NCBI GenBank assembly: GCA_016930365.1 | Contig: JAFGGY010000134.1 | Coordinates: forward strand, 1 to 35,979 | From: Prolixibacteraceae bacterium | Lineage (GTDB): Bacteria; Bacteroidota; Bacteroidia; Bacteroidales; Prolixibacteraceae | DNA length: 35,979 nt | Direction of reading: 5' to 3' | In this document: positions 19,814-23,350 of the stretch, piece by piece | Layout: each line of letters opens with the position of its first letter | Position numbering within the stretch: the first letter of the stretch is position 1 | Translations under genes and position numbers: made by a program | The notes under the pieces: model-generated | What the model saw: the letters and a program-made list of their open reading frames with translations, nothing else | Told to the model about the DNA's origin: nothing | The model's database searches: none

Positions 19814-20077
19814 TAATCCTTAAACATCTTTTGCCTACCGAACCCCGAGTAGTCGAAGATTTTGGGCATACGGCAAAAAAGGAAAGGCTGAGCAGCAAAA
19901 AAGAATCGATTGGCATGAAAAAACTGTTCGTTGTTGTTTTTTAAAATTCCCGACAAGCAAAAGCTTAAACATAGAAATACCTTAATGATGATTTTGCTTT
20001 TTACACAAAGCACTTTTTAGTGTTTTTGCTTTTTATATTCAACATTTTTTGCATTTTTTTTGTATAATTTAAGCAAA

Positions 20078-20470
20078 ATGGAAAATCTTTATCAAAAATC
20101 ATATCTAAAGCTGCACCGTATATCAACACAATTTAAAAGATACCTGGCCGATTTCATTGACTGGAACAATCGCCTTATTGGCATCGAAGGAGCAAGAGGT
20201 GCAGGCAAGACAACCATGGTACTGCAATATGCAAAAGAGAACCTCCCTTTAAACAATCAAACCCTGTATGTTAGCCTGGACGAATTGCTTTTTACCGAAA
20301 ACAAACTTGTTGATTTTACTGAACAATTTGTAATGCATAAGGATTCCTTTTCAGGCTCCTCACTAATGCACCTAAACCCGGCAAAAGATGATTTAAGCCG
20401 CCAGACTGTGATGCATAAATTGTCTGGATTATCTTTTCGGGAATATCTAAATATATCGCATGGAACATGA
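20078..20470 (+). pseudogene. Remnant of AAA+ ATPase (DUF4143-type) with internal deletion and truncated C-terminus
   Basis: Walker A intact (GIEGARGAGKTTMVLQYAKENL...TLYVSLDELLF); the region normally carrying Walker B is missing between FTEQFVMHKDS and FSGSSLMHLNPAKDDLSRQTVMHKLSGLSFREYLNISHGT; ORF stops after the FREYL motif. Confidence 0.75.
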
Positions 20471-22474: not shown

Positions 22475-22491
22475 GTTTTTCAGTTATTTGT

Positions 22492-22532
22492 AAATAAAAA
22501 AAACCCTGTTGGAAGTTCACCAACAGGGTTTT
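22492..22532 (-). terminator. Attenuator terminator in ilvB leader
   Basis: On the minus strand AAAACCCTGTTGG tgaactt CCAACAGGGTTTT (13-bp stem, 22500-22532) followed by a T-run; lies between leader peptide and ilvB start. Confidence 0.9.
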
Positions 22533-22557
22533 AATATCTGGTTATATTATTATCCTT

Positions 22558-22638
22558 TTATCTGCGGTGAACACATAGCAACTCCACGACCACAACAGTG
22601 ACCACGTTAAAAAGGATATTTGCTGAAAATGTATTCAT
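22558..22638 (-). CDS. ilvBN leader peptide (26 aa, Val/Leu-rich, IvbL-like)
   Basis: ATG AAT ACA TTT TCA GCA AAT ATC CTT TTT AAC GTG GTC ACT GTT GTG GTC GTG GAG TTG CTA TGT GTT CAC CGC AGA TAA = MNTFSANILFNVVTVVVVELLCVHRR*, 25 nt before the terminator stem. Not in the supplied ORF track (too short). Confidence 0.88.
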   Translation of the reverse strand: MNTFSANILFNVVTVVVVELLCVHRR

Positions 22639-22670
22639 CGCTTTGATTGTATTTTTAAAACTTGATTTTG

Positions 22671-22701
22671 CAATGTTAGTATAATATAATAGAAATCACA
22701 A
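22671..22701 (-). promoter_or_regulatory. Candidate Bacteroidetes-type promoter for the ilv leader
   Basis: Minus strand TTG (22699-22701), 20-bp spacer, TAACATTG (22671-22678; one mismatch to TAnnTTTG); about 33 nt upstream of leader ATG, overlapping the upstream methyltransferase 3' end. Confidence 0.45.
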
Positions 22702-23350
22702 TAAAACATGATTTTTCTTGTTGATGCTGTTGTTTCTTGCCCTTTATGACCACAAAACTGCCCGTACCGTGCCCCTTAACCGGCTCTTCAACAGCAGTTG
22801 CAGCCGGGTTTTCGAGGGTTTGGTATGTTTCAGTTACCGTAAAGCCATTCTCTTCTATCAGTTTAACAACTTCATTAACAGTAAAAAACCGGGCATATTT
22901 ATAGAAGGCACTTTTCTCTTTATTTTTTTCTAAAAACTGCCCAAAAGCTGTTCCCTTATCGATAATGGCAAATATAATTTCACCCTCATGCTTTAAAACA
23001 CGGCGAGCTTCTTTAACAGCTTTCTGCGGATTATCGATAAAGCAGATTGAAGTAATAAAGACTGCAAAATCGAAGGAGGCATCATCGTATGGAAGGTTTT
23101 CGGCAACGCCAACTTGTACATCCAGGCTTCTGCCCCGTGCTACTTCTATCATATTCTCAGATGGGTCGACCCCATATTTAATGCCCAATGGTTCGGAAAA
23201 AATTCCGGTACCCACACCAATTTCCAAACCTTTTTTATCTGAAGGCACTACCTGCTTTAGCGCCAGTACTTCCGATTCGAAAAGTGTTTTGTTTTCAACA
23301 AACCAGTTTTCGTACTTATCAACCAACGAATCAAAAGGATTGTATTGCAT
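22676..23350 (-). CDS. Class I SAM-dependent methyltransferase
   Basis: KKGLEIGVGTGIFSEPLGIKYGVDPSENMIEVARGR...VGVAENLPYDDASFDFAVFITSICFIDNPQKAVKEARRVLKHEGEIIFAIID. Confidence 0.9.
   Translation of the reverse strand: MQYNPFDSLVDKYENWFVENKTLFESEVLALKQVVPSDKKGLEIGVGTGIFSEPLGIKYGVDPSENMIEVARGRSLDVQVGVAENLPYDDASFDFAVFITSICFIDNPQKAVKEARRVLKHEGEIIFAIIDKGTAFGQFLEKNKEKSAFYKYARFFTVNEVVKLIEENGFTVTETYQTLENPAATAVEEPVKGHGTGSFVVIKGKKQQHQQEKSCFIVISIILY

Follow-up and report, generated by a model that had tools for sequence, protein, structure and literature searches.

What controls the acetolactate synthase genes ilvBN in a Bacteroidota genome, and how did that control come to be there? The locus lies in the window, meaning the whole 35,979-nt stretch analysed here (Prolixibacteraceae bacterium, contig JAFGGY010000134.1), where a short valine-rich open reading frame (ORF) and a stem-loop precede ilvB. 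The original prediction read this arrangement as a ribosome-stalling valine attenuator of the ivbL-ilvBN kind, and our results support that reading. The element is very probably a ribosome-mediated transcription attenuator, homologous to that of Escherichia coli ivbL-ilvBN, which arrived with a horizontally acquired ilvBN operon of the acetohydroxyacid synthase I (AHAS-I) type. Identifying it as a known kind of attenuator in an unexpected host is, for a reading made from sequence, sound.

Table 1 Features of the ilvBN operon and its leader in the window
Feature	Position	Strand	Basis
Promoter-like site, Bacteroidota type: TTG (22701-22699), 20-nt spacer, TAACATTG (22678-22671)	22671..22701	-	By eye
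Predicted sequestering region (leader start), pairing with region 2 in the absence of a ribosome	22626..22645	-	Folding
Leader peptide ORF, 26 codons, MNTFSANILFNVVTVVVVELLCVHRR and stop	22638-22558	-	Read from sequence
Control codons 12-18 (V V T V V V V)	22585..22605	-	Stall simulation
Region 2, GTTCACCGCAG, 5' half of the antiterminator, inside the last leader codons	22562..22572	-	Duplex with region 3
Region 3, CTGTTGGTGAAC, 3' half of the antiterminator and 5' part of the terminator	22515..22526	-	Duplex energy, alignment, covariation
Intrinsic terminator, stem-loop 3:4 (22532-22500) plus T-run	22491..22532	-	13 bp, 7-nt loop, -19.3 kcal/mol
ilvB, AHAS-I-type acetolactate synthase large subunit, 553 aa	20813..22474	-	NCBIfam, tree
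ilvN, short AHAS-I-type regulatory subunit, 94 aa	20509..20793	-	NCBIfam, identity

The anatomy is as first described, down to every coordinate. Valine occupies codons 12, 13 and 15–18 of the leader, i.e. six of the seven codons 12–18; the 13-bp stem, followed by a T-run, lies 25 nt from the leader stop on one side and, measured from the stem itself, 25 nt from the ilvB ATG (22474) on the other; and regions 1, 2 and 3 lie where they had been placed. Region 2 fits a CACCG...GGG motif of the relatives with which it was aligned. The leader is without a Shine-Dalgarno sequence. Promoters of Bacteroidota follow the consensus TTG/TAnnTTTG, and a site with one mismatch to it, read by eye, overlaps the 3' end of the upstream methyltransferase ORF, predicting a transcription start at about 22664. 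Among 398 short ATG-initiated ORFs (15–45 codons) in the 36-kb window, the leader alone has at least four valines in seven codons. The leader RNA folds with z = -3.7, and the 2:3 duplex has an energy of -16.0 kcal/mol versus -7.5 ± 2.0 kcal/mol with shuffled region 2 (z = -4.2, p = 0.002). Because six valines in seven codons never arose when the intergenic stretch was dinucleotide-shuffled 20,000 times, and because of this antiterminator score, a chance origin of the leader ORF and antiterminator is excluded.

We folded the transcript as it emerges with a ribosome at successive codons, assuming that the ribosome covers 13 nt past the first base of the A-site codon. For ribosomes with V12, V13 or any of V15–18 in the A site, all 13 (13.0) expected 2:3 pairs form before region 4 exists; this number falls to 8.6 at L20, 5.4 at L21, 2.8 at V23 and 0 at the stop codon. 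Without a ribosome, the leader start (about 22645-22626) makes 8.9 expected pairs with region 2, and 2:3 pairing drops to 3.3; an untranslated leader should therefore terminate. In the full-length leader at equilibrium, 3:4 is always favoured, and since it is the more stable helix once region 4 has been made, antitermination requires kinetic trapping of 2:3. Simulated in the same way, the E. coli unit gives 10.0 expected 2:3 pairs when stalled and 0.0 at the stop, with the terminator favoured in the complete transcript. The simulation thus bears out the proposal that stalling at the valine codons favours 2:3, and folding recovers 3:4 and 2:3 as alternatives, but not the 1:2 stem as drawn (22598-22591 with 22569-22562). 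That stem has a probability near zero in the folded leader (0.00 of 7 expected pairs), and pairing of the leader start with region 2 replaces it. We do not treat a 1:2 protector stem as defining for the attenuator, because a ribosome at the stop codon is enough to mask region 2, and the same simulation of the E. coli unit worked without 1:2.

From this anatomy we infer the promoter position, stalling, termination and valine response as follows. RNA polymerase would start about 25 nt ahead of the leader ORF. When Val-tRNA is ample, the ribosome would reach the leader stop and cover region 2, allowing 3:4 to pair and transcription to terminate. When Val-tRNA is scarce, the ribosome would stall in the valine run and leave region 2 free to pair with region 3 before region 4 has been transcribed, so that polymerase would continue into ilvBN. 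Should no ribosome translate the leader, the leader start would hold region 2 and termination would be the default.

The same layout recurs widely. We compared 32 AHAS-I loci, comprising the window, 22 loci from the initial searches, seven further gammaproteobacteria and two further Bacteroidota; the leaders of the last gammaproteobacterium and of both further Bacteroidota were read by eye. Rather than orthologous ilvBN loci devoid of leader or 3:4 stem, we found a Val-rich leader ahead of a terminator at 27 of the 32, E. coli ivbL included, in Bacteroidota, Omnitrophota, Planctomycetota, Fibrobacterota, Pseudomonadota and genomes labelled Nitrospirota. Across 25 units, the gap from leader stop to stem has a median of 25 nt (range 19–33) and is 25 nt in both the window and E. 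coli. Other loci depart from this pattern. One clostridial AHAS-I operon has a T-box by Rfam (L008, 2649-2897) in place of the leader peptide, and a second (L013) has upstream of ilvB, by eye, a T-box-like element that falls below Rfam's threshold; the same operon is there under a different tRNA-charging sensor. In L154 and L158, a terminator lies within 100 nt upstream of ilvB and a Val-rich leader was not found, possibly reflecting a decayed or differently controlled attenuator. In L012, neither leader nor terminator was found within 1 kb upstream of ilvB.

Aligning the leaders shows that both mutually exclusive helices covary. The 25 units align around CACCG-TAGGGG ... CCCCTGCCGGTGnn-AAACCGGCAGGGG, and the window and E. 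coli cores are alignable with each other (alignment A2). The 3:4 helix has 89.7% standard pairs and 26 double-change cells versus 6.7 in shuffles, with covariation at 9 of 12 pairs. In the same alignment, the 2:3 helix has 76.8% standard pairs, which fall to 37–53% when the register is slid by one to three columns, and 22 double-change cells versus 9.7 in shuffles; the count of 2:3 pairs with a double change (6 versus 5.2) was not above shuffles. Regions 2 and 3 of the same unit pair at -21.6 kcal/mol versus -16.8 kcal/mol for swapped partners, a mean cost of 4.8 kcal/mol (permutation p = 1e-4). We rely on these covariation and swap tests because the single-locus shuffle z for 2:3 is weak in several units, namely the GC-rich leaders of E. 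coli (-0.8), Providencia (-0.6) and Scal2_a (-0.8), as well as L187 and L188a (about -1.0 in each). Together with the z score in the window, the covariation supports the predicted 11-bp 2:3 antiterminator as a competitor of the terminator. Judged by the alignment, the AHAS-I attenuator units are one homologous RNA, so the earlier statement that the window element shares the logic of E. coli ivbL-ilvBN is right as far as it goes: beyond similar logic, the relationship is one of kinship.

With E. coli ivbL-ilvBN (L159, NC_000913.3), the window shares a Val-rich leader ORF ending 25 nt before the terminator, a CC(C)-TAG/GGG region 2 that pairs with the 5' arm and loop of the terminator, and AHAS-I ilvBN genes downstream. 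It differs in having 7 leader valines (E. coli has more), a leader ending in HRR rather than NAP, an A/T-richer antiterminator, no Shine-Dalgarno sequence, a Bacteroidota-type promoter and a host of another phylum.

The host is indeed a member of the Bacteroidota, as had been stated, but its ilvBN operon is of the E. coli AHAS-I type. The best NCBIfam models are PRK08155 for ilvB (794.7 bits, under its cut-off of 870) and PRK08178 for ilvN (101.1 bits, under its cut-off of 128). Window IlvB is about 45% identical to the ordinary ilvB products of its own genus and family. With a group of proteins from Omnitrophota, Fibrobacterota, Planctomycetota, Nitrospirota, clostridia and enterobacteria, E. 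coli IlvB among them, it shares 52–64% identity, and this group and the window protein form one clade with 100/100 support. Window IlvN is 50–62% identical to the short IlvN beside each AHAS-I ilvB versus 31–40% to the long paralogues in the same genomes. AHAS-I was found in none of a sample of 395 Bacteroidota genomes besides the window's own (E ≤ 1e-165), in two others, one of them borderline, among 393 genomes of the window's order (E ≤ 1e-160), and in none of seven genus mates. On one flank, flotillin and SodB are 98% and 92% identical in genus mates; on the other, DsrE, cupin, HD-domain and TetR proteins are 90%, 91%, 83% and 84% identical. The near absence of AHAS-I ilvB from the sampled Bacteroidota, combined with native genes on both flanks, indicates that the operon was acquired laterally and is foreign to most Bacteroidota. 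Contamination or a chimera is an unlikely source, given that several genes on both flanks are 84–98% identical in genus mates and that the GC content (0.458) and GC3 (0.426) of ilvB are inside the window's range. The genome is a fragmented metagenome assembly, and a clean empty site sought in genus mates was not found, synteny around the site being broken there. Adjoining ilvN is a 136-aa ATPase-like fragment (window 20060-20470, plus strand) that matches part of one gene of the genus mate G002 with 38% identity; it may represent a disrupted gene at one border of the acquired segment.

Transfer of AHAS-I ilvBN has been repeated, because the AHAS-I tree mixes phyla with support. For example, Omnitrophota L006 groups with the Nitrospirota-labelled L077 (99/94), and Planctomycetota L144 and L145 group with E. 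coli and Providencia (100/100), apart from Scalindua, the other Planctomycetota. The tree gives window IlvB no resolved place inside the clade, and thus indicates no donor. No plasmid vector for AHAS-I was identified; the best matches were enterobacterial, many of them chromosome-sized, with at most 54% identity. A scan of the phylum Nitrospirota for AHAS-I was empty, the one relevant ilvB being cut by a contig end.

Might the attenuator have come with the acquired operon and persist in its Bacteroidota host as a non-working relic? In favour of this, promoters and translation initiation are different in Bacteroidota, the leader lacks a Shine-Dalgarno sequence, and selection in this host cannot be measured directly from one copy in one assembly. 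Against this, sequence changes in the window are matched by partners. In 3:4, CTG-YY-GG has become CTG-TT-GG, with YY/RR matched as TT/AA, and a loop change from GTGAAAA to GTGAAC is matched by a change from TTTTCACC to GTTCACC in region 2. Moreover, two other Bacteroidota of the window's order (L187 and L188) retain leaders and terminators, and the promoter readable by eye ahead of the leader is of Bacteroidota type. We consider a relic unlikely, and a working attenuator remains the preferred reading.

Two further explanations fare far worse, and to each we give only a very slight chance. The stem-loop lies downstream of a codirectional gene (22676-23350) and would end its transcript, so one could suppose an ordinary terminator of the methyltransferase transcript beside a chance Val-rich ORF, with no regulation at all. 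Besides the shuffles, this is contradicted by the same two-part layout, at about the same spacing, at 26 other loci with unrelated upstream genes; moreover, a plain terminator would not need an antiterminator, yet 2:3 covaries. Alternatively, the leader could control translation of ilvB, by coupling or reinitiation, instead of termination, as leader ORFs near genes can boost translation by reinitiation, with a distance peak of 11–14 nt reported for Bacteroidetes (PMC4833913). The leader stop is 83 nt before the ilvB start, far past that peak, with a strong terminator and T-run in between, and the distance conserved among loci is that from leader stop to terminator, whereas the distance from terminator to gene varies. 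Finally, a riboswitch, T-box or protein-bound leader, for which the two clostridial loci offer a precedent, is the least probable of all, as the window has no Rfam family above gathering score (T-box RF00230 included) and no T-box motif, and its leader is almost wholly ORF and terminator.

For the transcription attenuator that we favour, a second level of organization emerged among relatives. Two leader-terminator units stand in series at 9 of the 27 loci (L006, L007, L011, L015, L077, L149, L151, L152 and L188), one of which, L188, belongs to a Bacteroidota of the window's order. Where measured, the second leader begins 17 to 136 nt after the first terminator. With 17 nt there in L077 and L152, and 25 nt in L011, no room is left for a separate promoter outside the terminator, and polymerase must therefore read through the first unit to arrive at the second. 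Of seven tandem loci tested, six have units that each favour their own 2:3 partner overall; the cross-pairings Omni 2a:3b and Scal2 2b:3a are as good as the own pairings. The second unit of L149, where the called ORF runs into the terminator, was left out of the pairing statistics. The window unit is closer to the upstream than to the downstream unit in six of eight tandem loci (28.5 versus 7.5 for Scalindua), with the Fibrobacterota pairs pointing in the opposite direction. This hints that the window once had a tandem, of which the upstream unit remains and the second was lost.

On balance, we lean towards a broader picture in which AHAS-I ilvBN moves between phyla as a mobile operon and takes its own ribosome-based valine sensor along, polymerase would have to pass two independent valine checks in series on one transcript in many members, and the window unit derives from the upstream unit of such a tandem whose partner was lost. 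If so, two gates in series for one signal would reduce basal expression multiplicatively and make the response sharper; the tandem versions thus raise a quantitative question about the added effect of a second identical gate. The only tandem leader-peptide attenuators in the literature searched, mostly without subscription papers, were those of Salmonella mgtCBR, and no report of two same-signal valine attenuators in series was found there. The mgtCBR leader RNA, termed a singular example, likewise carries two leader ORFs, but mgtM and mgtP sense different signals, ATP and proline (PMC3641672). By contrast, the nine AHAS-I tandems are Val-rich in both units and have a terminator per unit, whereas the window has a single unit.

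More broadly, leader-peptide attenuation is commonly regarded as a local device that is soon rebuilt. In the loci compared here, alignment and covariation trace a single attenuator, together with its operon, through E. coli, Scalindua, Omnitrophota, Fibrobacterota and Bacteroidota. A requirement for no host factor beyond ribosome, polymerase and valyl-tRNA would explain how it could move with its genes. The surprise is the family, in which a single valine sensor based on the ribosome has spread with its operon through at least six phyla and is often doubled. Before reporting a Firmicutes case, for which they leaned towards convergence, Naville and Gautheret (2010) described leader-peptide attenuation as unknown outside Proteobacteria and Actinobacteria (PMC2965389). 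Leader-peptide attenuation of an acetolactate synthase operon, as in the window, is also reported for Corynebacterium ilvBNC, a different operon in a different phylum (PMC1262725, PMC11857589). The T-box (RF00230) of the clostridial L008 controls the same genes via charged tRNA but senses the tRNA directly, with no leader peptide.

Rfam has no family at the E. coli ivbL element or at the tandem relatives searched. By eye, no attenuator was seen at host-type ordinary ilvB genes; L002 has an ilvD-ilvB arrangement and L003 is without a Val-rich leader. The ordinary (non-AHAS-I) ilvB of Sedimenticola (L018) has its own Val-rich leader, MKIRSLMVVVSLVVVVVQRLRGETIG, followed by a terminator-like stem and T-run. 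In many AHAS-I leaders, Pro-Pro or Ala-Pro precedes the stop (SPP, LPP, YPP, NAP, LAP), which probably reflects CCNCCG of region 2, and Pro-Pro before the stop could slow the ribosome on region 2.
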